From NCBI GenBank assembly GCA_947623175.1, contig CANQGK010000025.1:1-33325 (forward strand): a DNA stretch of 33,325 nt, written 5' to 3'. The notes below the pieces were generated by a model. The model was not told the DNA's origin and made no database searches. It saw only the letters and a program-made list of their open reading frames with translations. Origin of the DNA: an uncultured Clostridia bacterium (GTDB lineage: Bacteria > Bacillota > Clostridia > Oscillospirales > Acutalibacteraceae). Made by a program: the position numbers and the translations under genes. This document shows, piece by piece, positions 1,905 to 31,440 of the stretch (position 1 is the stretch's first letter; every line of letters starts with the position of its first letter).

Positions 1905-2044
1905 CTCCGAAAAAACAATAATGCCTATCCCGAAACGGAGATAGGCATAAATATATTGACAAACTCAATCAAATATTTAAAGCGTACCTCGGCAGGCGAT
2001 AAGCTTTACGACCTTACGGTCACCTGCTGTCTCAGGAATACAAC
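1905..2044 (-). ncRNA. Ribosomal protein L10 leader (autoregulatory 5' UTR)
   Basis: Read on the minus strand, the transcript carries the L10-leader core. GCAGGTG (complement of 2021-2027) pairs with CGCCTGC (complement of 1992-1998) around an inner hairpin GACC-GTAA-GGTC, flanked by CCTGAGACA and CCGAGGTACG. A terminator-like hairpin follows just before the rplJ ribosome site. By family knowledge, excess L10(L12)4 binds the kink-turn core and lowers rplJL expression. The promoter at 2051-2079 sets the 5' end near 2044. Confidence 0.9.
1911..1948 (-). terminator. Attenuator hairpin of the L10 leader
   Basis: TGCCTATC (minus) pairs with GATAGGCA around a short CCGTTTCG-type loop at 1922-1947, followed on the minus strand by TTATTGTTTTTT. 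This is an intrinsic terminator placed between the L10-binding fold and the ribosome site of rplJ, so regulation probably works by premature termination. Confidence 0.85.
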
Positions 2045-2050
2045 AAGGTG

Positions 2051-2079
2051 ATTATATAACAAAAACCGCCGCTTGTCAA
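2051..2079 (-). promoter_or_regulatory. Sigma-A promoter of rplJ-rplL
   Basis: On the minus strand a perfect TTGACA (complement of 2074-2079) and a perfect TATAAT (complement of 2051-2056) are separated by 17 bases. Transcription should begin near 2044, which produces the L10 leader. Confidence 0.93.
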
Positions 2080-2710: not shown

Positions 2711-2787
2711 GGCTGTATAGCTCAGTTGGCTAGAGCATGCGGTTCATACCCGCAGTGTCATTGGTTCAAATCCAATTACAGCCACCA
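2711..2787 (+). tRNA. tRNA-Met (CAT), elongator
   Basis: A 77-base cloverleaf with encoded CCA. The acceptor GGCTGTA pairs with TACAGCC, and the D-arm contains AGCTCAGTTGGCTAGAGC. The anticodon stem TGCGG/CCGCA holds the loop TTCATAC, anticodon CAT, and the T-arm carries GGTTCAAATCC. A paired first position (G1-C72) argues against the initiator tRNA. The anticodon stem is that of clostridial elongator tRNA-Met rather than the tRNA-Ile read by lysidine. Confidence 0.95.
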
Positions 2788-2789
2788 AC

Positions 2790-2865
2790 GGCCCGGTGGT
2801 CAAGAGGCCTAAGACACCGCCCTTTCACGGCGGTAACACGAGTTCGAATCTCGTCCGGGTCACCA
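2790..2865 (+). tRNA. tRNA-Glu (TTC)
   Basis: A 76-base cloverleaf with encoded CCA, two bases after tRNA-Met. The acceptor GGCCCGG pairs with CCGGGTC, the anticodon stem CCGCC/GGCGG holds CTTTCAC with anticodon TTC, and the T-arm carries GAGTTCGAATCTC. It shares the promoter at 2662-2690 with tRNA-Met. Confidence 0.96.
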
Positions 2866-20560: not shown

Positions 20561-20589
20561 TTGACAAGTGTGAAAAAGCGTGGTATAAT
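20561..20589 (+). promoter_or_regulatory. Sigma-A promoter of the T-box operon
   Basis: Perfect TTGACA at 20561-20566 and perfect TATAAT at 20584-20589 with a 17-base spacer; transcription should start near 20596. It begins only 24 bases after the ABC transporter gene, with no terminator between. Confidence 0.94.
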
Positions 20590-20596
20590 CCTTAAA

Positions 20597-20860
20597 AATG
20601 CGTTGAAGGAATTATTGCTTACATTTTCTTATTACAGCGAGTCGGCGTTCGGTGCAAGCCGATATAAGGGTGTTAAGTCAAGTCTCATTCCGGAGCAGAA
20701 CGGCAGAATCAGAGTAAGCCGTTACGGCATGCCCCGTTATCATGGCATAAAGCTTGTTGGAGCTTTACAGAGTGACCGTTTTATACGGTAATCAGGGTGG
20801 TACCGCGAATAATTATTCGTCCCTGAGATTGCTTTCGGCAATCTCGGGGATTTTTTTATT
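20597..20860 (+). ncRNA. T-box riboswitch, probable leucine (CUC) specifier
   Basis: The canonical T-box AGGGTGGTACCGCG is at 20794-20807, followed by a terminator (20821-20857: GAGATTGC/GCAATCTC stem extended by CCCT/GGGG, then seven T). Stem I is visible: AGCGAG, the distal hairpin TCGGC...GCCGA near 20642-20662, and base pairing of GGAAT near 20609 with ATTCC at 20687-20691. The bases on the 3' side just above that base helix read AAGTCTCA, so CTC at 20684-20686 is the likely specifier, a leucine codon. By family knowledge uncharged tRNA binds and prevents termination. The leucine call rests on hand alignment and on the LeuA-like first gene. Confidence 0.9.
20821..20857 (+). terminator. 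T-box regulated terminator
   Basis: CCCTGAGATTGC pairs with GCAATCTCGGGG around a TTTCG loop, followed by seven T. In the antiterminator the 5' strand pairs with the T-box region instead. It can also stop read-through from the upstream ABC transporter operon. Confidence 0.92.
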
Positions 20861-20876
20861 GAAAGGAATTGAAGTT

Positions 20877-22262
20877 ATGAAAAAGGTTAAAATCAGCGAT
20901 ATGACACTTTGCCGCAATACCGCGCTCAGCTTTAAAGAGCGCATCGAAATTGCGCGACTGCTCGAAAGACTGAACGTAGATTCGGTCGAGCTGCCGGCGG
21001 TAGACAATGTTAAGACCGATACCCTGCTTATACGCACCGTATCGTCGTTTGTAAAGACGAGCCGCCTTTCGGTTTGCGGCGGATACAATAAGGAGACGGT
21101 GGCGCTGGCCGCCGCGGCGCTTAATTCCGCCGTTTACCCCGAAATACGCATAGAAATCCCCGTAAGCCCCGTAGGTATGGAGTATACCCTTCATAAAAAA
21201 ACGCCCGCGGTAATAGAGCTTATAAAGGAATTGGTAAGCGAAGCCAAACAAAGCGGCGCCGCCGTTCAGTTCTGCGCCGTAGACGCCACCCGCGCCGAGG
21301 AACAGGTCTTGATTGACGCCGTTAACGCCGCCGTGGAGGCGGGAGCCACCGCTGTTACCGTTTGCGATACGGCGGCAAATATGCTTCCCGACGCCTTTGC
21401 AAAGCTCGTATCCGATATAAAAACGAGCGCTCTTGAAGGTAAGGACGTAGATTTGGCGGTATGTGTGGAAAATAAGAACGGGCTTTCGACGGCGTCCTGC
21501 ATCTTGGCGGTAAACGCCGGAGCTAATACCGTTAAGACCGCCGTATCCGGCGGGGTTGCGGATCTTGAAACCTTTGCCAATCTCATAAAGAACTGCGGCA
21601 ATACCTGCGGCTTCGAAACCGCGATAAAGCACACCGAAACCGGCAGAACGGTAAAGCAGATAACCCGTATGACCGACTCGACCTCACCCGCCGTGACCAC
21701 CTTAAAGAGCGACGACGAGGGCGAAATTCAGCTCGACTCAAAAGACGACCGCGAAACGGTTGCCGCCGCGGTGGAATCCCTCGGCTACGATTTGACCGAA
21801 GAGGATATTACCAAGGTTTACGAGGAATTTACCCGCATAGCCTCCAAAAAGCGGGTAGGCACCAAGGAGCTTGACGCTATCATAGCAAGCACCGCCTTAC
21901 AGGTTCCGCCCACCTACAAGCTTGTGAATTACGTTATAAACAACGGAAATATAATCTCCTCGTCGGCGCAGATACGCCTTTCCAAGGACGATGAGGAGCA
22001 AGTGGGAATTTGCATAGGCGACGGTCCGGTTGACGCCGCGTTCAAAGCCGTAGAGCAGATAATCGGCAGGCATTACGAGCTTGACGATTTCCAAATCCGC
22101 ACCGTCACCGAGGGCAGGGATTCTATGGGCTCCGCTTTGGTAAGGCTCAGAGAAAACGGCAAGCTTTATTCCGGCACGGGTATTTCAACCGATATCATAG
22201 GCGCAAGCATAAGGGCGTATATAAACGCGCTCAACAAAATAGTTTACGAGGAGGAAAACTGA
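20877..22262 (+). CDS. Isopropylmalate-synthase-like protein with LeuA regulatory domain but degenerate catalytic site
   Basis: This protein has 461 residues from the ATG at 20877 (AAAGGAATT upstream, after the T-box terminator); a longer open frame into the leader is not used. Residues 1-275 form an HMGL/IPMS-like TIM barrel (ISDMTL at the first strand, AVDATRAEEQ, VTVCDTAANMLPDAF, GLSTASCILAVNAGAN). Residues about 347-458 match the LeuA allosteric domain (YKLVNYVINNGN, GDGPVDAAFKAVEQI, RDSMGSALVRL, STDIIGASIRAYI). The catalytic TLRDGEQ motif is replaced by TLCRNTA, and the metal-binding HxH of HCHNDLG is replaced by C196-V-E198. Condensing activity of the usual kind is doubtful. A leucine-sensing or altered-function role is an inference. 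Confidence 0.85.
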   Translation: MKKVKISDMTLCRNTALSFKERIEIARLLERLNVDSVELPAVDNVKTDTLLIRTVSSFVKTSRLSVCGGYNKETVALAAAALNSAVYPEIRIEIPVSPVGMEYTLHKKTPAVIELIKELVSEAKQSGAAVQFCAVDATRAEEQVLIDAVNAAVEAGATAVTVCDTAANMLPDAFAKLVSDIKTSALEGKDVDLAVCVENKNGLSTASCILAVNAGANTVKTAVSGGVADLETFANLIKNCGNTCGFETAIKHTETGRTVKQITRMTDSTSPAVTTLKSDDEGEIQLDSKDDRETVAAAVESLGYDLTEEDITKVYEEFTRIASKKRVGTKELDAIIASTALQVPPTYKLVNYVINNGNIISSSAQIRLSKDDEEQVGICIGDGPVDAAFKAVEQIIGRHYELDDFQIRTVTEGRDSMGSALVRLRENGKLYSGTGISTDIIGASIRAYINALNKIVYEEEN

Positions 22263-22263
22263 T

Positions 22264-24771
22264 ATGAAACTCTCCTTTTCCACCAAGGGGTGGCATAACA
22301 GCTCTTTTGAGGATTTTTGCAATATCGCAAAGGATTTAAAGTTCGAGGGTATCGAGCTTCACAACATACACAACCGACTTTTCACCGATAAGGACGGCGC
22401 TTTCCACGATTACGCCGCCGCGGCTACCGTAAGACGGCTTTACGAATTAAAGCTGTCTATTCCCTGTATCGATTCGATCTGCGACTGCGGAATCGAGGGG
22501 GATAAGGACGCCTCCGTCAAAGAAATTCACGACTGTATAGACGTAGCTAAAAATCTTAAGATCCCGAACATCAGAATACGCGCCATAGGCGACGGCGACG
22601 TCGATAAAGCCTTCGCCTGCGCCGAGGATATCATCCGCACGGTACTTAGCGAAGCGGAAAACGCCGGCATCACCCTTTTGGTTGAGACCTCGGGTATATT
22701 CTGCGACACGGCAAGGCTTTTGGAGCTTCTCAATACCTTCGCCTGCGATAATCTGGCGGCTTTGTGGGATATGTATTCGACCTTCTTTAAGGGGGGAGAG
22801 GACGCCGAGACCACCATTAAAAATCTGGGCGCTTACGTTCGTCACGTTCACATAAAGGACGCCGTTTCGAACGACGGCGTTACGGAATTTTGCCTTATGG
22901 GCGAAGGCAAGCTTCCGCTTAAAAGTATGATGCTCGCCCTGCGTTCGGTAAACTTCGACGGATTTATTTCGTTGGAATGGGATCCCGAATGGTGCGAAGA
23001 GCTGGACGACATGGAGATCATATTCGCGCAGTTCGTAAACTATATGAAGCAGTTCGGCGATACCTCCAAAAACGAAAAAGCGCTCATATACAACCGCGCG
23101 CACACCGGCAAGTACGTATGGGAAAAGGATCTGCTTATAGACGCCACCTTTTCGGACGTTTTGGACCGTATGGTAGAGGAATTTCCCGACCAATACGCCT
23201 TTAAGTACACAACGCTCGACTATACGAGAACCTACAGCGAATTTCGCGACGACGTGGATAACTTTGCCCGCGCGCTTATAGCACTCGGAGTAAAGGCGGG
23301 AACCCATGTGGCGGTCTGGGCTTCGAACGTTCCGCAGTGGTATATCTCGTTTTGGGCTACCGTTAAAATAGGCGCGGTGCTCGTAACCGTAAATACCGCT
23401 TATAAAATTCACGAGATCGAGTATCTGCTCAAGCAGTCGGATACTCATACCCTTATTATGACCGAGGGGGCAAAGGATATAGCTTACGGCGAAATCGTGG
23501 CGGAGCTTTGCCCCGAGCTTGCTTCCTTGAAGCCCGGAAATCCCCTGCATGCAAAGCGTTTGCCCTTTTTGCGCAATTGTATCACCGTAGGCTTTAAGCA
23601 GGCGGGCTGTCTTACCTGGAACGACGCGCTCGACCGCGCGGCGCGGGTGCCCTTGCGCGAGGTTTACCGTATGGCAGCCGCCGTGGATAAGGACGACGTC
23701 TGCAATATGCAGTACACCTCCGGCACCACGGGCTTCCCCAAAGGGGTTATGCTTACCCATTACAACGTTGTCAACAACGGTAAATATATAGGCGACCATA
23801 TGGAATTATCCACGGCGGACCGCATGATGATCCAGGTGCCGATGTTCCATTGCTTCGGAATGGTGCTTTCCATGACCGCTTCCATGACGCACGGTACCAC
23901 CATGTATCCGCTGCCCTATTTTTCACCCAAGCCCGCGCTTGCCTGTATCAATAACGAGCATATCACGACCTTTAACGGCGTTCCGACAATGTTTATCGCC
24001 ATGATGCAGCATTCGGATTTTAAAAAGACCGATTTTTCGTATATGCGCGTCGGAATTATGGCGGGCGCCAACTGCCCGGCGGACCTTATGAAAAAGGCTA
24101 CCGAGGTTATGAATATGAAGGAAATCGTTTCGGTTTACGGTCAGACGGAGGCGTCGCCCGGATGTACTATGAGCAGTTATTACGATTCGCTCGAGGTGCG
24201 TACCGAAACGGTAGGCTCTAAGTTTGCAAACGTCGAATGTAAAATCGTAGACCCCGAGACGGGCCTTGACTGCGAGGACGGTGTAAACGGTGAATTTGTG
24301 GCAAGAGGCTACAATATTATGAAGGGCTATTACAAAATGCCGACCGAAACGGCGGAGACGATAGACGCCGACGGCTGGCTCCACACGGGCGATATCGCCT
24401 GCCGCGACGCCGACGGCAACTACCGTATAACGGGCAGACTTAAGGACATGATAATACGCGGCGGCGAAAATATTTATCCCAAAGAAATCGAAGAATTTAT
24501 TTATACTTGTCCCAAGGTAAGCGACGTTCAGGTAATAGGCGTTCCGGACGAGCGGTACGGCGAAGAAATTATGGCGTGCATTATACTTAAAAAGGGCGAA
24601 AAGATGACCGAAGAAGAAATGAAGTCCTTTATAGCCGCCAGCATGGCGCGCCATAAGGTTCCGCGCTATATAGATTTTGTCGACAGCTTTCCTATGAACG
24701 CGGCGGGTAAGATCCTTAAGTATAAAATGCGTGAGGACGCCGCGAAAAGATTGGGGATCGACAGTAAATGA
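22264..24771 (+). CDS. Fusion: xylose-isomerase-like TIM barrel + acyl-CoA synthetase (AMP-binding)
   Basis: This protein has 835 residues. Residues 1-270 are a sugar phosphate isomerase/epimerase (AP endonuclease 2) barrel with likely metal ligands in LLVETSG, ALWDMYS, HVHIKD and SLEWDPEW. From about residue 290 a complete acyl-CoA synthetase follows: YTSGTTGFPKG (from residue 484), VYGQTEASP, GWLHTGD, ITGRLKDMIIRGGENIYP and the catalytic Lys in AAGKILKYKMRE. The frame is uninterrupted, and both halves keep their key residues, so it is a true fusion and not a sequencing artefact. The enzyme should activate a carboxylic acid as acyl-AMP and then acyl-CoA; the acid is unknown. It follows the LeuA-like gene by one base and overlaps the next gene. 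Confidence 0.9.
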   Translation: MKLSFSTKGWHNSSFEDFCNIAKDLKFEGIELHNIHNRLFTDKDGAFHDYAAAATVRRLYELKLSIPCIDSICDCGIEGDKDASVKEIHDCIDVAKNLKIPNIRIRAIGDGDVDKAFACAEDIIRTVLSEAENAGITLLVETSGIFCDTARLLELLNTFACDNLAALWDMYSTFFKGGEDAETTIKNLGAYVRHVHIKDAVSNDGVTEFCLMGEGKLPLKSMMLALRSVNFDGFISLEWDPEWCEELDDMEIIFAQFVNYMKQFGDTSKNEKALIYNRAHTGKYVWEKDLLIDATFSDVLDRMVEEFPDQYAFKYTTLDYTRTYSEFRDDVDNFARALIALGVKAGTHVAVWASNVPQWYISFWATVKIGAVLVTVNTAYKIHEIEYLLKQSDTHTLIMTEGAKDIAYGEIVAELCPELASLKPGNPLHAKRLPFLRNCITVGFKQAGCLTWNDALDRAARVPLREVYRMAAAVDKDDVCNMQYTSGTTGFPKGVMLTHYNVVNNGKYIGDHMELSTADRMMIQVPMFHCFGMVLSMTASMTHGTTMYPLPYFSPKPALACINNEHITTFNGVPTMFIAMMQHSDFKKTDFSYMRVGIMAGANCPADLMKKATEVMNMKEIVSVYGQTEASPGCTMSSYYDSLEVRTETVGSKFANVECKIVDPETGLDCEDGVNGEFVARGYNIMKGYYKMPTETAETIDADGWLHTGDIACRDADGNYRITGRLKDMIIRGGENIYPKEIEEFIYTCPKVSDVQVIGVPDERYGEEIMACIILKKGEKMTEEEMKSFIAASMARHKVPRYIDFVDSFPMNAAGKILKYKMREDAAKRLGIDSK

Positions 24772-25577
24772 TAAACGGAATTTACACAATTGACGCGCAT
24801 TGCCATATATATCCCGATAAAATAGCTTTGCGCGCGGTCGAGGGAACCAAAAATTTTTATTCGCTTAAAATGGCATATGCCGGCACGGTTTCCGACCTTG
24901 TGTCGCGAGGGGAAAGAGCGGGCATAGATCATTACGTGGTGCAGTCGGTAGCCACTACTCCGAGTCAGGTAAAGAGCATCAACGAATTTATAGCCGAAAG
25001 CGTAAAAAATTCTAACGGCAGATTTACGGGGCTCGGAACCATGCACCCCGACAGCTCCGATATCGAGGGCGACTTCAATCATCTTCTGGAATTGGGGCTT
25101 AAGGGAGTAAAGCTTCACCCCGACATACAGGCGTTTAAAATCGACGATTACCGCTGTTTGAAAATATACGAGCTTTGCGAAAAAAAAGGACTGCCGATAC
25201 TTATGCATACGGGCGATTACCGCTACGATTACTCCAACCCCAACCGTATGCTCCCCGTTCTTGATATTTATACCGATCTTACCGTAGTGGGGGCGCATTT
25301 GGGCGGCTGGTCGGTCTGGGATGAAGCGGCAGAGAAGCTTGCGCATCATGATAATTTTTACGTGGACTGCTCCTCTTCTTTTCAATTTATGGATAAGGAG
25401 CACACCAAAAAAATCATACGCCGCTACGGAGCGGACAGGGTGCTTTTCGGAACCGATTACCCCATGTGGTCGTATGACGATGAAATTGATTATTTTTTGT
25501 CTCTCGGACTTGACGAAAACGAAATTATGAGTATACTAAATATAAATGCAAAAAAAGTATACGGTATAACGGAGTGA
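24768..25577 (+). CDS. Amidohydrolase family protein (amidohydrolase_2)
   Basis: This 269-residue cytosolic metal-dependent hydrolase has the amidohydrolase_2 layout. The HxH on strand 1 is His11 and His13 in TIDAHCHIYP; further on are GVKLHPD, LPILMHTGDYRY, VVGAHLGGWSVWDEA and the strand 8 Asp in VLFGTDYPMWS. The family includes decarboxylases (ACMSD, gamma-resorcylate) and lactone or amide hydrolases, so the reaction cannot be fixed. The ATG overlaps the stop of the acyl-CoA synthetase fusion as ATGA, which indicates coupled translation and suggests that the two act on the same compound. A normal length and intact ligands argue that it is active. Confidence 0.9.
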   Translation: MINGIYTIDAHCHIYPDKIALRAVEGTKNFYSLKMAYAGTVSDLVSRGERAGIDHYVVQSVATTPSQVKSINEFIAESVKNSNGRFTGLGTMHPDSSDIEGDFNHLLELGLKGVKLHPDIQAFKIDDYRCLKIYELCEKKGLPILMHTGDYRYDYSNPNRMLPVLDIYTDLTVVGAHLGGWSVWDEAAEKLAHHDNFYVDCSSSFQFMDKEHTKKIIRRYGADRVLFGTDYPMWSYDDEIDYFLSLGLDENEIMSILNINAKKVYGITE

Positions 25578-25583
25578 GTTTTA

Positions 25584-26867
25584 ATGAGCAGTTACAAAAA
25601 CGGCACGATATGCGTCCAGGGCGGCTACACGCCCGGAAACGGCGAACCGCGGCAAATTCCGATAATCCAGAGCACTACCTTTAAATATGCCACGAGCGAG
25701 GAAATGGGCAAGCTTTTTGATTTGGAGGCGAGCGGATATTTTTATTCCCGCCTTCAAAATCCTACCTGCGATACCGTAGCGGCGAAGATTTGCGAGCTCG
25801 AGGGCGGTACCGCCGCCATGCTTACCTCATCCGGTCAGGCGGCGTCCTTCTTTTCGATATTCAATATCGCTTCCGCCGGAGATCATATCGTATCTTCCTC
25901 TACCATTTACGGCGGCACCTACAACCTTTTCGCCGTCACGATGAAGAAAATGGGCATCGAGTTTACCTTTATAGACCCCGACTGCTCGAAAGAAGAGCTG
26001 GACGCGGCGTTTAAGCCCAATACGAAGGCGGTTTTCGGCGAGACTATCGCAAACCCCGCGCTCACGGTATTGGATATTGAAAAATTCGCAAACGCCGCAC
26101 ATTCGCATGGCGTTCCGCTTATTGTCGACAATACCTTTGCCACACCGGTTAATTGCAGACCGTTTGAATGGGGAGCGGATATCGTAACGCACTCCACCAC
26201 CAAGTATATGGACGGTCACGCTTCGGCTGTGGGCGGCTGTATAGTCGATTCGGGTAATTTCGATTGGACGCGTTATCCCAAGAAATTCCCCGGTCTTTGC
26301 ACGCCGGACGACAGCTATCACGGGGTAACCTATACCGAGCGTTTCGGCATAGCCGGAGCTTATATTACAAAGGCTACCGTTCAGTTAATGCGCGACCTCG
26401 GCTGTGTGCAGAGTCCGCAGAGCGCTTATTTGCTTAATTTGGGGCTCGAAAGTCTGCATGTGAGAATGCAGCGCCATTGCGAAAACGGACTTGCCGTCGC
26501 AAAAGCGCTGGAGGCTGACGACAGAGTGGCTTGGGTAAACTACCCGGGGCTCGAATCGAATAAATATTACGCGCTTGCGAAAAAATATATGCCTTCGGGC
26601 AGCTGCGGCGTGGTAAGCTTCGGCGTAAAGGGCGGCAGAAAAGCGGCGGAAGCCTTTATGAAAGGGCTTAAAATCGCCGCTATCGAAACCCATGTCGCCG
26701 ACGCGCGGACCTGTTGTCTGCATCCGGCAAGCTCGACTCACAGACAGATGAACGACGCCGAGCTTAAGGAAGCAGGCGTGTATCCAGACCTTGTCCGCTT
26801 TTCCTGCGGAATAGAGGACGCCGAGGATCTGATAGCCGACATTAAGCAGGCTTTAGATAATATTTAA
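25584..26867 (+). CDS. metY: O-acetylhomoserine aminocarboxypropyltransferase (sulfhydrylase)
   Basis: This 427-residue PLP enzyme of the Cys/Met metabolism family makes homocysteine from O-acetylhomoserine and sulfide. The PLP Lys207 is in VTHSTTKYMDGH, the PLP-ring Asp182 in LIVDNTFATP, and the N-terminal YSRLQNPT segment supplies the phosphate contact from the neighbouring subunit. Its length, with the inserted FDWTRYPKKFPGLCTPDDSYHG stretch shortened here, is that of MetY and not of the ~390-residue MetB/MetC. It starts 6 bases after the amidohydrolase with GGAGTGAG and is followed after 18 bases by metA, which makes its substrate. No SAM riboswitch is seen before it. Confidence 0.95.
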   Translation: MSSYKNGTICVQGGYTPGNGEPRQIPIIQSTTFKYATSEEMGKLFDLEASGYFYSRLQNPTCDTVAAKICELEGGTAAMLTSSGQAASFFSIFNIASAGDHIVSSSTIYGGTYNLFAVTMKKMGIEFTFIDPDCSKEELDAAFKPNTKAVFGETIANPALTVLDIEKFANAAHSHGVPLIVDNTFATPVNCRPFEWGADIVTHSTTKYMDGHASAVGGCIVDSGNFDWTRYPKKFPGLCTPDDSYHGVTYTERFGIAGAYITKATVQLMRDLGCVQSPQSAYLLNLGLESLHVRMQRHCENGLAVAKALEADDRVAWVNYPGLESNKYYALAKKYMPSGSCGVVSFGVKGGRKAAEAFMKGLKIAAIETHVADARTCCLHPASSTHRQMNDAELKEAGVYPDLVRFSCGIEDAEDLIADIKQALDNI

Positions 26868-26885
26868 AAGGAAAGATATAGACAA

Positions 26886-27803
26886 ATGCCTATTAAAATT
26901 CCAAACGATTTACCTGCCGTAAAGACGCTTAATGACGAAAATATCTTTGTTATGACCGAGCTTCGCGCCATAACGCAGGATATTCGTCCGCTTAAAATAC
27001 TGCTTTTGAATTTAATGCCGAAAAAGATCGAAACCGAAACGCAGTTATCGCGCTTGCTCGGCAACTCGCCTTTGCAGGTGGATCTTGAATTTATACACAC
27101 CAAAAGCCATAAATCCAAAAACACCTCGGCGGAGCATCTTTTTACCTTTTACAAGACCTTTGACGATGTAAAGCAGCGTACCTTTGACGGTATGATAATA
27201 ACCGGCGCGCCGGTGGAACAGCTTGAATTTGAAGAGGTCGGATATTGGGAAGAGCTTTGCGAAATTATGGAATGGACAAAGACCCACGTTCACAGCACCT
27301 TCCACATTTGCTGGGGTGCGCAGGCGGGGCTTTATTACCATTACGGCATAAAAAAGCACCCTCTGCAAAAAAAGCTTTTCGGTGTTTTCGAGCATCGGGT
27401 AGACTATAAAAATTCCATTCTTTTCAGGGGATTTGACGACGTATTTATGGTGCCTCATTCGAGACATACCACCGTATCCCCGGAGGATATCGAAAAGACG
27501 GACGCGCTTAAAATACTCGCATCCTCCGACGAAGCCGGAGTTTACGCCGTTTCCACAAACGGCGGCAGGCAGATTTTTATCACCGGACATTCGGAGTATG
27601 ACCGCGACAGCCTGGCAAACGAGTATTTCAGGGATTTAAAGGAAGGCAAGCCTATAGAAATACCCAAAAACTATTTCCCAGACGACGACCCGAATAAGCT
27701 GCCCGTGGTTACCTGGCGTTCGCACGCCAATCTGCTTTATTCGAATTGGCTTAATTATTTCGTATATCAAACCACCCCTTACGATATAGAACAAATAAAA
27801 TGA
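26886..27803 (+). CDS. metA: Homoserine O-acetyltransferase, MetA family
   Basis: This 305-residue enzyme acylates homoserine in the cytosol, the first committed step to methionine. The nucleophile Cys142 is in [11 protein letters not shown], and the catalytic His235 and Glu237 are in ITGHSEYD. Position 111 is Glu ([10 protein letters not shown]), the residue reported to select acetyl-CoA over succinyl-CoA in MetA proteins, so the product should be O-acetylhomoserine. That matches the adjacent metY. The gene follows metY by 18 bases with AAAGGAAAG upstream and belongs to the T-box operon. The historical family name is homoserine O-succinyltransferase. Confidence 0.95.
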
Positions 27804-27826
27804 TTATATAATATGAGGTGATGCTT

Positions 27827-28543
27827 ATGATCAAGGTTACGATTTTTAACGAATTTGTTCACGAAAAAAAGGAGGAATCCGTGAAAAAGGTTTATCCCGA
27901 GGGGATACATATCGCGCTTAAGAACGCTTTGCAGTCCGACGATATTACCGTCAGAACCGCTACGACGGAAACTATAAAAGAGGATTTAAGCGCAGAAGTG
28001 CTTGCCGATACCGACGTACTTATCTGGTGGGGGCATATGGCGCATGAATCCGTGCCGGACGAGGTGGCGACGGCGGTCATGAGAGAAGTGCAAAAGGGTA
28101 TGGGAGCGATATTCCTGCATTCGGCGCATCATTCAAAGCCCTTTAAGCTGCTTATGGGCACTCCCTGTAATCTCACCTGGCGGGAGGACGGCGACAGCGA
28201 GCTTGTTTGGGTATGCAATCCTTCGCACCCCATAGCCGAGGGTATAGGCCGTTTTATTCATCTTGAGCATGAGGAAACCTACGGTGAACCCTTTTCAATT
28301 CCCGAGCCCGACGAGCTTGTCTTTATAGGTTCTTTTTCGGGCGGCGAGGTTATGAGAGCGGGCTGCTGTTATAAGCGCGGCAACGGTAAAATTTTCTATT
28401 TTCAACCGGGCCACGAAACCTTCCCCACCTTTAAAGACGAGAAAATAATAAAGGTAATAAAAAACGCCGTATATTGGGCAAAGCCGACTTACAGGGCGGA
28501 GCTTATCTGTCCGCAGGTCAAAAAACCGTTAGAAGATCTATAA
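27827..28543 (+). CDS. ThuA domain protein (trehalose-utilisation-like)
   Basis: This protein has 238 residues from the ATG at 27827. An upstream GTG overlaps the GAGGTG ribosome site and is not used. The class-I glutamine-amidotransferase-like ThuA fold is recognised by DVLIWWGHMAHESVPDE, AIFLHSAHHSKPFKLLMG, LTWREDGDSELVWVCNPSHPIAEGI and FYFQPGHETFPTF. The elbow residue typical of true amidotransferases is not evident. ThuA proteins occur with sugar oxidation or isomerisation genes; biochemical data are sparse. It lies 23 bases after metA and before another sugar-isomerase-like gene, a frequent pairing. Confidence 0.9.
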   Translation: MIKVTIFNEFVHEKKEESVKKVYPEGIHIALKNALQSDDITVRTATTETIKEDLSAEVLADTDVLIWWGHMAHESVPDEVATAVMREVQKGMGAIFLHSAHHSKPFKLLMGTPCNLTWREDGDSELVWVCNPSHPIAEGIGRFIHLEHEETYGEPFSIPEPDELVFIGSFSGGEVMRAGCCYKRGNGKIFYFQPGHETFPTFKDEKIIKVIKNAVYWAKPTYRAELICPQVKKPLEDL

Positions 28544-28563
28544 AAACTACAATCATAATTCAT

Positions 28564-28592
28564 ATCGAACGGAGATTTTGCTCCGATCGATT
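28564..28592 (+). terminator. Hairpin between thuA-like gene and the last isomerase gene
   Basis: CGAACGGAG pairs with CTCCGATCG (one mismatch) around ATTTTG, followed by ATTTTAAG. It is a weak terminator and may reduce rather than stop transcription into the last gene. Confidence 0.5.
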
Positions 28593-28611
28593 TTAAGAAA
28601 GGATGTTTACA

Positions 28612-29337
28612 ATGAAAAATTTATCCGCGGGTATTCAGCTTTATTCCGTGCGAGACAGCATGAAAAATGATTTTGAGGGAACTTTGAAAGCTTTAAGCGA
28701 GCTCGGTTACACAAGCGTTGAGTTTGCGGGCTTCTACGGCCGCACGGCGACGCAGATCAACGAGCTTTTGGACAAATATGATTTAAAGCTTTCGGGTACT
28801 CATTCGCCGATAGACGATCTCGTTAACAATTTCGAGGAAACGTTAGCCTTCCATAAGGCGATAGGCAATAAATATTATATTATTCCTCATTACGCATTTT
28901 CTTCGCAAAAGGATATTGACGAGCTTGTAAAAAAGATAAACGCCGTTTCGGGCAAGCTCGAAAAAGAGGGAATAACCCTTGCGTTTCATAATCACTCCGC
29001 CGAGTTTAAGCCTCTGTCCGACGGGGCGGTCGTTTACGAACAGCTGCTTTACAGGACCGATATTAAGCTGGAGCTTGATACCTATTGGGCGTTTATCGGT
29101 ATGAAGGATCCCATAGCCTTGCTCGAAAGACTCGGCGACAGGGTGATTTTCACTCATATCAAGGACGGTACGGCAGAGGGCTTCGGCAAACCGCTCGGAA
29201 TGGGCGAGGCTCCCGTCGCACAGGTCGTCTCAATGGTTAAAAAAGCGGGTATACCGATGGTAGTGGAAAGCGAGACCTGCGACCCCTCCGGACTTAGCGA
29301 AGCAAAAATTTGTATAGATTATCTTAAAAAATTATAA
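28612..29337 (+). CDS. Sugar phosphate isomerase/epimerase (xylose-isomerase-like TIM barrel)
   Basis: This 241-residue TIM barrel starts at the ATG at 28612; AAGAAAGG at 28595-28602 is the ribosome site and an ATG at 28603 lies too close to it. Metal-ligand segments are present: TLAFHNHSAEF, IKLELDTYW, VIFTHIKDG and PMVVESET. Family members isomerise or epimerise keto-sugars or inositol derivatives; the substrate is unknown. It is a separate stand-alone relative of the N-terminal half of the fusion at 22264-24771. It ends the operon, with a terminator 20 bases downstream. Confidence 0.9.
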   Translation: MKNLSAGIQLYSVRDSMKNDFEGTLKALSELGYTSVEFAGFYGRTATQINELLDKYDLKLSGTHSPIDDLVNNFEETLAFHKAIGNKYYIIPHYAFSSQKDIDELVKKINAVSGKLEKEGITLAFHNHSAEFKPLSDGAVVYEQLLYRTDIKLELDTYWAFIGMKDPIALLERLGDRVIFTHIKDGTAEGFGKPLGMGEAPVAQVVSMVKKAGIPMVVESETCDPSGLSEAKICIDYLKKL

Positions 29338-29538: not shown

Positions 29539-29883
29539 ATGAATATAAAACGGGGAGAAATTTATTATGCCGATTTAAGTCCGGTGGTGGGCTCCGAGCA
29601 GGGCGGAATACGTCCCGTACTTATAATCCAAAACGACGTCGGGAACCGCTACAGCCCCACCGTGATCGCGGCGGCTATTACGAGCCAGCGTGAAAAAAAC
29701 AAGCTGCCCACCCATATTTCGGTCGAAGCGAGCGACTGCGGACTTGCAAAGGATTCGATAGTATTGCTCGAACAGGTGAGAACCATAGACAAAAAACGGC
29801 TCAAAGAAAAGATGGGTATGCTCGACGGCGCTTCCATGGGTATGGTCGATAAGGCGCTCAGCGTAAGCTTCGGACTCGGATAA
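29539..29883 (+). CDS. mazF: MazF/PemK-family endoribonuclease toxin without visible antitoxin
   Basis: This 114-residue protein has the classic MazF/EndoA sequence: [19 protein letters not shown] at the N-terminus, [31 protein letters not shown] and [16 protein letters not shown]. It cleaves single-stranded mRNA at short sequences in the cytosol. The Arg in IRPVLII and the Thr/Ser in AAITSQ are the usual catalytic residues. In Bacillus an antitoxin gene lies directly upstream; here the preceding 200 bases hold only the operon terminator and AT-rich DNA with two TATAAT-like boxes (29503, 29514). The antitoxin may be elsewhere, or the gene may have been captured alone. Confidence 0.94.
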
Positions 29884-30369: not shown

Positions 30370-31413
30370 TTACGCGACAAAGAGGCTATTTAAGCAAGCC
30401 TCGTAGAGCTCGGAGGAGCTATAATAGTTAAAAATTCCCCTCGGATAATCGTTAATCCATTTTTCGAGCTTTCGTATGTCGGCGGGCGTTACGGCTGTAA
30501 AGTCGTAGCCTTTCGGGTAGTGGCGGCGTATCATTTTGTTTTGGTTTTCGTTTGAGCCGCGCTCGTAAGAACTGTACGGGTGGCAAAAATAGAGCGTTGT
30601 TCGCTTTCCCTCTCCCGTAGAGCTGCGCTCTATGCCCTCATAGTCGGAAAACTCGGAGCCGTTGTCTACTGTGATTGATTGAAAAATCAAGGCGAACCGT
30701 TCCGCTCCCATTTCCGCCTCGATAGCGTCGAGCTCTTTTAATACGCTTGCCGCTGTTTTGTCTTTCATAAGCCGTATTATCTCGTTGCGGGTTTTTCGCT
30801 CCGTGAGCACAAGCAAGGTTTTCTTTGTTCCTTTTTTGCCCTCTACCGAGTCCATTTCCCAATTACCGAAAGTTTCGCGTGCTTCGATTTCCTCGGGGCG
30901 TTTTTCTATGCTCGTTCCTTTTGGAGCTCTTGCCGGTTTTACGCGGTCGTACTTTTGTTTATCCTTATTACGCTTTACGGGCAAGTCCTTATTTGTAATC
31001 GTAAGGAATACTCCATCGTCAATATATCGGTAAAAGGTCGTTTTTGATATAGAAGTGTGAAAAATTATGCCTTTTTTCTTTATTTCTCCAAGAATAGCTC
31101 CGGGTGCATATTTTTCAACCGATACTTTGTATTCAAGATATGCTGCGTATTCGCTATCGTTCCCTATTTTCAGACCCGGCCCCTTTGCACGTAGATTATC
31201 TTGGTATTTTTTCTCCGCAATATCCGGGCTGTATCTGTTTATCGTGATAAGTTCTGAATTGAGCCGCTCGTACCTCCCGCGCTTTAGCTCTCGGTAGATC
31301 GTGCTAATGTGTACGCCGAGCTCATCCGCCATAATGCGCGGCGAGGTTCCTACTCGCTCCCACGCTTCTATTTTTAATCTGTCTGTAAATGTTAGGTGCT
31401 TATAATTTCTCAT
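30370..31413 (-). CDS. IS30-family transposase
   Basis: This protein has 347 residues from the ATG at 31413, which follows GGAGTG; an ATG 27 bases upstream has no ribosome site. The N-terminus is an IS30 HTH (HLTFTDRLKIEAWERVG, ADELGVHISTIYRELKRG). The DDE catalytic core shows the first Asp in GNWEMDSVEG, the second in ITVDNGSEFSD and the Glu in ERGSNENQNKMIRR, so all three are present. Convincing terminal inverted repeats were not found on either side, so the limits of the element are not drawn. It lies between the SOS-box gene and the HicAB pair at the left end of the phage-like region. Confidence 0.93.
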   Translation of the reverse strand: MRNYKHLTFTDRLKIEAWERVGTSPRIMADELGVHISTIYRELKRGRYERLNSELITINRYSPDIAEKKYQDNLRAKGPGLKIGNDSEYAAYLEYKVSVEKYAPGAILGEIKKKGIIFHTSISKTTFYRYIDDGVFLTITNKDLPVKRNKDKQKYDRVKPARAPKGTSIEKRPEEIEARETFGNWEMDSVEGKKGTKKTLLVLTERKTRNEIIRLMKDKTAASVLKELDAIEAEMGAERFALIFQSITVDNGSEFSDYEGIERSSTGEGKRTTLYFCHPYSSYERGSNENQNKMIRRHYPKGYDFTAVTPADIRKLEKWINDYPRGIFNYYSSSELYEACLNSLFVA

Positions 31414-31440
31414 AAAATCACTCCGTTTTATAGAAAGCAA

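Follow-up and report, generated by a model that had tools for sequence, protein, structure and literature searches.

The window analysed here, a contig of 33,325 nucleotides (G000:C25) from an uncultured Clostridia bacterium whose assembly holds 2.38 Mb in 54 contigs and is 94% complete, contains an operon whose genes probably help convert the waste acid isovalerate to leucine. A promoter and a T-box leader of the leucine class precede seven open reading frames on the same strand, which are separated by gaps of 1, -4, 6, 18, 14 and 59 nucleotides (Table 1) and start with LeuAx, a LeuA-like protein, and TIM-ACS, in which a TIM barrel is fused to an acyl-CoA synthetase (ACS). This is in agreement with the initial annotation, which listed seven close genes on one strand (with gaps of -4 to 68 bases there, and of -4 to 59 nucleotides with the starts used here) and whose protein family names are matched by the profile searches.

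Table 1. Features of the operon, by position in the window
Feature	Position	Strand	Remarks
Sigma-70-type promoter TTGACA-17-TATAAT	20561..20589	+	12/12 consensus matches
T-box leader, leucine class	20594..20827	+	RF00230, 126 bits, E 7.8e-28, gathering score 93
Specifier CUC (Leu), next base A	20684..20686	+	Rfam model alignment
UGGU of antiterminator bulge, pairs with tRNA ACCA end	20798..20801	+
Intrinsic terminator hairpin with T run, overlaps 3' arm of antiterminator	20819..20851	+
LeuAx, catalytically degenerate isopropylmalate-synthase-like protein with LeuA_dimer (leucine-binding) domain	20877..22262	+
TIM-ACS, xylose-isomerase-like TIM barrel fused to acyl-CoA synthetase	22264..24771	+	Proposed isovalerate-CoA ligase, substrate putative
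AmdH, Amidohydro_2 metal hydrolase	24768..25577	+	Likely ligand residues conserved
MetY, O-acetylhomoserine sulfhydrylase family	25584..26867	+	TIGR01326 over cut-off
MetA, homoserine O-acetyltransferase	26886..27803	+	NF047918 over cut-off
ThuA-family protein	27818..28543	+	By eye, start more likely at an ATG near 27827, which has a better ribosome site
IolE-like TIM-barrel protein (AP_endonuc_2)	28603..29337	+	Profile matches

The promoter, leader and terminator are all found where they were first annotated, the leader by a covariance-model match, and the leucine specificity, originally given as probable, is upheld by the model alignment as well as by the relatives of the operon. These were collected by a contig scan that gave at least 598 pattern matches, at least 566 of them relatives of LeuAx, and the best 80 loci were used; by title their records are from uncultured Clostridia, many of them from the guts of ruminants or other herbivores. 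Together with the window they give 81 LeuAx leaders, 77 of which have at least 250 nucleotides upstream. CUC is found in register in 68 leaders (63 by pattern and 5 more by eye) out of 69 that are readable, the remaining one (L080) having CUG, which also specifies leucine, while the leader of L088 is cut by the contig end. Likewise, four distant LeuAx genes (L145-L148), whose products are about 40% identical, have leaders that by eye read CUC, CUG, CUC and CUC. Since the only switches are synonymous, within leucine (CUC/CUG) here and within valine (GUA/GUC) in the sister operons described below, it is the amino acid and not the codon that is conserved, and we can conclude that the leader specifier is under selection. 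The host genome furthermore has a tRNA-Leu(GAG) gene with the 3' end A-CCA, which is what the CUC specifier and the UGGU bulge require, so that the cognate tRNA is present. In structure, specifier, UGGN and terminator switch the leader is thus like other leucine-class leaders of RF00230, but it precedes an acyl-CoA synthetase operon and not the usual targets of such leaders, which are genes for leucine synthesis or leucyl-tRNA synthetase.

The comparison of loci also delimits the operon. TIM-ACS follows LeuAx in 70/70 loci that extend more than 2,600 nucleotides downstream and AmdH is found in 47 of the 62 with more than 3,600, whereas MetY and MetA are present in just 9 and 8, respectively, of the 56 with more than 6,000. 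Among the 80 loci ThuA has a match in L039 only, and none gave a separate match to the operon's last gene. The conserved core is LeuAx and TIM-ACS and, less strictly, AmdH. A conserved unit of seven genes was accordingly rejected, since MetY and MetA are rare in the relatives and ThuA and the last isomerase hardly conserved, and of the proposed gene order it is that of genes 1 and 2 that is kept. The claim that the run contains no strong internal terminator holds, as the region has no more terminator-like sites than chance would give (14 against 15.2 +/- 4.1 expected). No strong internal promoter was found either, but there is one weak site with 10/12 matches just before MetY (25510-25537), which makes a second transcription start for MetY-MetA possible, although the promoter scan, with 19 sites in total against 13.9 +/- 3.5 expected, is weak evidence.

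LeuAx has the domain order of 2-isopropylmalate synthase, an HMGL-like barrel followed by the leucine-binding LeuA_dimer domain (PF00682 and PF08502), and its best profile matches are to LeuA, so the family relation claimed for it stands. It is however far below the equivalog cut-offs, the best LeuA score being 262.5 bits against 532 (NCBIfam), and an alignment of the window protein with four canonical LeuA of the order shows that its catalytic loops are deleted. Five residues of the DTTLRDGEQ loop are missing, including its arginine, which we take to be R80 of the Mycobacterium tuberculosis enzyme, and HxHND, GERAGN and a stretch of some 31 residues at HESGIHQHG are absent as well. The same holds for the family at large, as among 109 LeuAx rows (97 non-redundant) HxHND, TLRD and GIHQ do not occur and GERxGN occurs once; as a control, HxHND and GERxGN were found together in one long frame in 14/14 loci fetched for canonical LeuA. 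R80A and R80K are listed with destroyed activity, as are K79A and N83A, in a table of PMC10464499 whose columns run together in the text available. That LeuAx is an ordinary LeuA is ruled out by these motif tests together with the missing partners leuB and leuC in the host genome.

The two domains of the protein are not equally conserved, the leucine-binding one being kept best. Mean pairwise identity among the 97 non-redundant sequences is 0.71 for the leucine domain as against 0.51 for the barrel, and the barrel is the less identical part in more than 99.9% of the 4,656 pairs; four canonical LeuA proteins show the reverse, with the barrel better conserved in 6/6 pairs. The leucine-domain motifs GDGPxDAxF and STDI..A...Y.NA.NK are near invariant, and it is this C-terminal domain of LeuA that binds leucine according to excerpts of PMC10464499 and PMC1919377. 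Judged from sequence, this is the pattern expected of a putative leucine-binding pseudoenzyme, and most likely LeuAx would bind leucine and throttle TIM-ACS. The barrel nevertheless retains residues in common with LeuA (M101, Y103 and DA.R), and the conservation of these and of MEY..HKK makes a binding role of the barrel or a protein interface likely.

The notion that TIM-ACS serves leucine synthesis rests on its synthetase fold, as identified by profile, on the leucine T-box upstream, and on the company that the operon keeps. In 43 of the 80 loci subunits of 2-ketoisovalerate:ferredoxin oxidoreductase (VOR) or the branched-chain aminotransferase IlvE are encoded in the same stretch, and in 31 there is another synthetase of one of two kinds, ACS_A or ACS_B, which carry their own T-box wherever the leader is readable. 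Read by eye, the specifier is AUC (Ile) in 13/13 readable ACS_A leaders out of 16 (L071, L109 and L114 being unreadable), and of 24 distinct readable ACS_B leaders out of 26 (L103 is unreadable and L124 repeats L043) 21 have GUA and 3 have GUC, both for Val. The host genome itself has a locus of this kind on another contig (L119, G000:C11), where an AUC T-box is followed by ACS_A, a MinD-like ATPase, VorB, the beta and gamma subunits and IlvE. VorB scores 533 bits against a cut-off of 399 for NF005507 (3-methyl-2-oxobutanoate dehydrogenase VorB) and IlvE 397 bits against 250 for TIGR01123, and the beta and gamma subunits have Pfam matches but are below the NCBIfam equivalog cut-offs. In L147, from another family of the order, AmdH, LeuAx, TIM-ACS, ACS_A, ACS_B, IlvE, a MinD-like ATPase and VOR subunits are all encoded in a single run on one strand, although the VorB matches there lie in two frames, so that VorB is possibly broken or misassembled. 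ACS_A and ACS_B also have helix-turn-helix and cupin domains fused to them (L119:800-3067 in the host genome; L071:2887-5175), and this domain fusion suggests that each of these synthetases carries its own sensor. A MinD/ParA-like ATPase between the acyl-CoA synthetase and the VOR genes is seen in many loci (L119:3074-3736, L071:5180-5845).

The best reading of these specifiers is that each T-box would switch on the activation of whichever acid corresponds to its amino acid, which for leucine is isovalerate. Uncharged tRNA-Leu(GAG) would bind the leader through CUC and the UGGU bulge and transcription would, going by T-box biology, read through; the synthetase part of TIM-ACS would then turn isovalerate into isovaleryl-CoA, VOR, encoded elsewhere in the host genome behind the isoleucine T-box, would carboxylate this with CO2 to 4-methyl-2-oxopentanoate, and IlvE would aminate the product to leucine. 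LeuAx would sense free leucine and throttle TIM-ACS, giving dual control by charged-tRNA level and free leucine, and MetY-MetA, added in some lineages, would be co-induced with the operon. Here we infer the substrate of each synthetase, the direction of VOR and both the leucine binding and the target of LeuAx. AMP-forming synthetases consume ATP and a T-box raises expression on amino acid shortage, and this cost and this response together argue for the biosynthetic direction. One could alternatively imagine that isovaleryl-CoA is made for another use, such as the starters of iso-branched membrane fatty acids, for which leucine is the usual source and the synthetase chemistry alone would suffice, the leucine T-box then only reporting precursor shortage. 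This seems very improbable, however, as the linkage to VOR and IlvE, the operon junction with ilvE seen in some loci and the separate isoleucine and valine T-boxes on the sister synthetases all favor amino acid synthesis.

Carboxylation of isovalerate as a route to leucine in rumen bacteria was reportedly described by Allison and co-workers in 1962 and 1966. In PMC7356843, as far as its available text goes, leucine is formed in rumen fermentation by isovalerate carboxylation, and isoleucine and valine from 2-methylbutyrate and isobutyrate. The chemistry proposed for the operon is the same, carboxylation followed by amination with sister routes to isoleucine and valine, but it comes here with a gene set under amino-acid-specific T-boxes, a TIM-ACS fusion and a proposed LeuA-like pseudoenzyme. 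The initial annotation knew of no described pathway for the set, and as the classical rumen route fits, the chemistry need not be undescribed; its guess of an unusual branched-chain metabolism is on the other hand supported, as are the leucine T-box with CUC and the closely packed run of genes. A literature search that covered few subscription papers returned neither a paper joining T-boxes to the isovalerate route nor a description of a LeuA pseudoenzyme sensor, and priority is not established for either.

The distribution of leucine and valine genes is in agreement with a replaced pathway. The host genome has no LeuC-sized match, only an aconitase-type frame of 650 residues, and no LeuB, only an isocitrate-dehydrogenase-like match of 226 bits (LeuB elsewhere scores above 440), and this bacterium, whose relatives dwell in animal guts, seems to lack the usual leucine pathway. 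Among 295 genomes of the order LeuAx is found in 65, LeuB in 165 and both in 4 (Fisher p 1e-21), LeuB being missing from 61 of the 65 LeuAx genomes, and the two alternate within several families (f17, f19, f20 and f21). VorB is present in 56/65 LeuAx genomes against 115/230 others (p 7e-8). Within the genus (37 genomes, the host included) LeuAx is found in 28, though in G012 as a fragment of 137 residues, and a LeuC-sized frame in 8 (a fragment in G036), and the valine genes follow suit, IlvC being present in 8 and ACS_B, with at least 68% identity to the copy in L071, in 26; both members of either pair are present only in G009, and neither IlvC nor ACS_B is found in four incomplete genomes.

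The lack of LeuB in most LeuAx genomes, and of LeuB and LeuC matches in the host, could also mean that LeuAx is an active, altered enzyme that uses 2-ketoisovalerate to open a new de novo route to leucine, on which the TIM barrel, AmdH and the synthetase take the place of LeuBCD. The host can indeed make 2-ketoisovalerate, since it encodes IlvB, IlvC and IlvD (L122, named by eye, with IlvC over cut-off); among the matches listed for it there is none of the ACS_B type. The ligand residues of AmdH are likewise conserved, and the LeuAx barrel has a conserved H106 and K108 that LeuA has not. Such a route is nevertheless unlikely, since across LeuAx the arginine loop, the metal histidine pair and the stretches with GERAGN and HESGIHQHG are either missing or not conserved, IlvC is absent from 26/28 LeuAx genomes of the genus, the likely metal ligands of the TIM barrel decay in LeuAx loci, and AmdH was not found in 15 of the 62 loci counted above. 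The IlvBCD genes of the host (L122, L008:1501-1763 (-)) lie behind a weak, degenerate T-box-like leader of 36 bits, which by eye seems to have lost its UGGN core.

TIM-ACS is more widespread than LeuAx. It is present in 118 of the 295 genomes (126 matches minus 8 that cover the synthetase part only), including 63 of the 65 with LeuAx, and VorB is found in 106 of these 118 against 65 of 177 others (p 3e-21). In plasmid records no match covered 80% of the TIM-ACS query. The view that LeuAx and TIM-ACS always go together was rejected, since TIM-ACS alone is common, and this weakens a pure pathway swap. From 20 TIM-ACS loci without LeuAx that were chosen and fetched, 14 have a T-box upstream (12 by the core pattern, L188 and L196 by Rfam) and all of these were read as CUC, also in genomes that have leuB; since the CUC leader is thus found before TIM-ACS with or without LeuAx in between, the leucine T-box goes with TIM-ACS. 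The residues that are presumably the metal ligands of the barrel, going by its fold family, are E141, D169, H196 and E238 (window numbering). All four are kept in 20/20 loci without LeuAx but in only 28 of 82 with it (window included), where D169 and E238 are N and V in 39, and so the barrel activity seems dispensable where LeuAx is present; in the TIM-ACS without LeuAx (L183-L198), whose ligands are kept, an isomerase-type activity may belong to the fused barrel. The TIM, AmdH, ThuA and IolE-like proteins are unexplained by the scheme and TIM-ACS also occurs in leuB-positive genomes, and both could speak for a rival reading, in which the genes serve catabolism or secondary metabolism of acids derived from leucine and carry the leucine T-box incidentally. 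Induction on leucine shortage has the wrong sign for catabolism, however, and with LeuAx anticorrelated with LeuB, and TIM-ACS correlated with VorB, we hold this to be highly unlikely.

Taken together, we consider it likely that the operon is the leucine branch of a system in which branched-chain amino acids derive from fatty acids with branched chains rather than from de novo synthesis, with LeuAx as a leucine sensor. Several observations nonetheless weigh against this interpretation. The co-occurrence tests ignore phylogeny and many of the genomes, that of the host included, are incomplete; LeuAx and LeuB co-occur in four genomes of the order sample, and in 9 of the 65 LeuAx genomes VorB was not found at the cut-off, three of these (G096, G270 and G281) being at least 93% complete. 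G009 has both full sets (leuB, leuC and ilvC along with LeuAx, ACS_A and ACS_B), and is either a transition state or a mixed bin, and in G050, which does not belong to the genus, LeuAx is present together with IlvC and an ACS_B-like gene. Among the 55 genomes that have TIM-ACS but not LeuAx, 51 have VorB and 35 have LeuB, so the pathway is not strictly a replacement. There is no T-box in 6 of the 20 loci without LeuAx, one of which (L182) has only 280 nucleotides upstream, nor in 7 of the 77 LeuAx leaders (L045, L046, L049, L052, L053, L081 and L082). The conserved H106 and K108 furthermore indicate that the LeuAx barrel is not drifting freely and may still bind or do something, and the simple scheme leaves AmdH, ThuA, the last isomerase and the TIM barrel without a part to play. 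A point in favor of the reading, by contrast, is that in L046, L049 and L081 LeuAx is within about 35 nucleotides of an upstream ilvE and has no T-box of its own; in L045, L053 and L082 it is about 120 nucleotides behind ilvE, where by eye a G+C-rich inverted repeat replaces the T-box.

The conversion of isovalerate, isobutyrate and 2-methylbutyrate to leucine, valine and isoleucine in the rumen has been known for some 60 years, but which synthetase pairs with which acid is hard to tell by sequence similarity. The T-box specifiers name an amino acid for each synthetase and so make the assignment directly testable. If LeuAx is indeed a leucine sensor, an enzyme of a lost pathway has been retained as regulator of its replacement. 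Auxotrophy calls made from genomes would change as well, as scored leucine auxotrophs may be isovalerate-dependent prototrophs. For the wider proposal, that a stand-alone leucine sensor derived from a non-catalytic isopropylmalate synthase controls an isovalerate-CoA ligase where leuBCD has been lost, and that this ligase and those of the isoleucine and valine T-boxes form a programme of three channels, each read by tRNA, which would be the genetic reason why gut bacteria require branched-chain fatty acids, we see an about even chance.

Leucine shortage had also been predicted to raise expression of methionine genes, and MetY and MetA are indeed co-located in the operon, but they are a lineage-specific tail and do not belong to its core. 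MetA has a single match in the host genome, and in the genus MetY accompanies it in 20/21 MetA loci, in 6 of which, the window included, AmdH is directly upstream of MetY; in G002 AmdH comes after MetA, with LeuAx on a different contig. No SAM riboswitch or T-box was found with Rfam in the 16 MetA loci, out of 30, that were searched, only about 200 nucleotides before MetY being covered in most. The relatives of AmdH in the PDB are, nearest, an uncharacterised protein and then mostly decarboxylases of the same superfamily. AmdH is linked to MetY-MetA in L176 and L168 and to TIM-ACS without LeuAx in L182, and so its substrate may concern both.

The host genome has 8 T-box matches at E <= 0.001, 5 of them over the cut-off; by eye, one (L121) is upstream of a run of trp genes and another (L005) upstream of a periplasmic-binding-type protein. 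Elsewhere in the window there are an L10 ribosomal protein leader and two tRNA genes at 1907-2054 (-) and 2711-2862 (+), a PemK/MazF-like toxin gene just downstream of the operon (29539-29883, +) and, further downstream, an open reading frame (30370-31440, -) that by eye resembles an IS30-type transposase.

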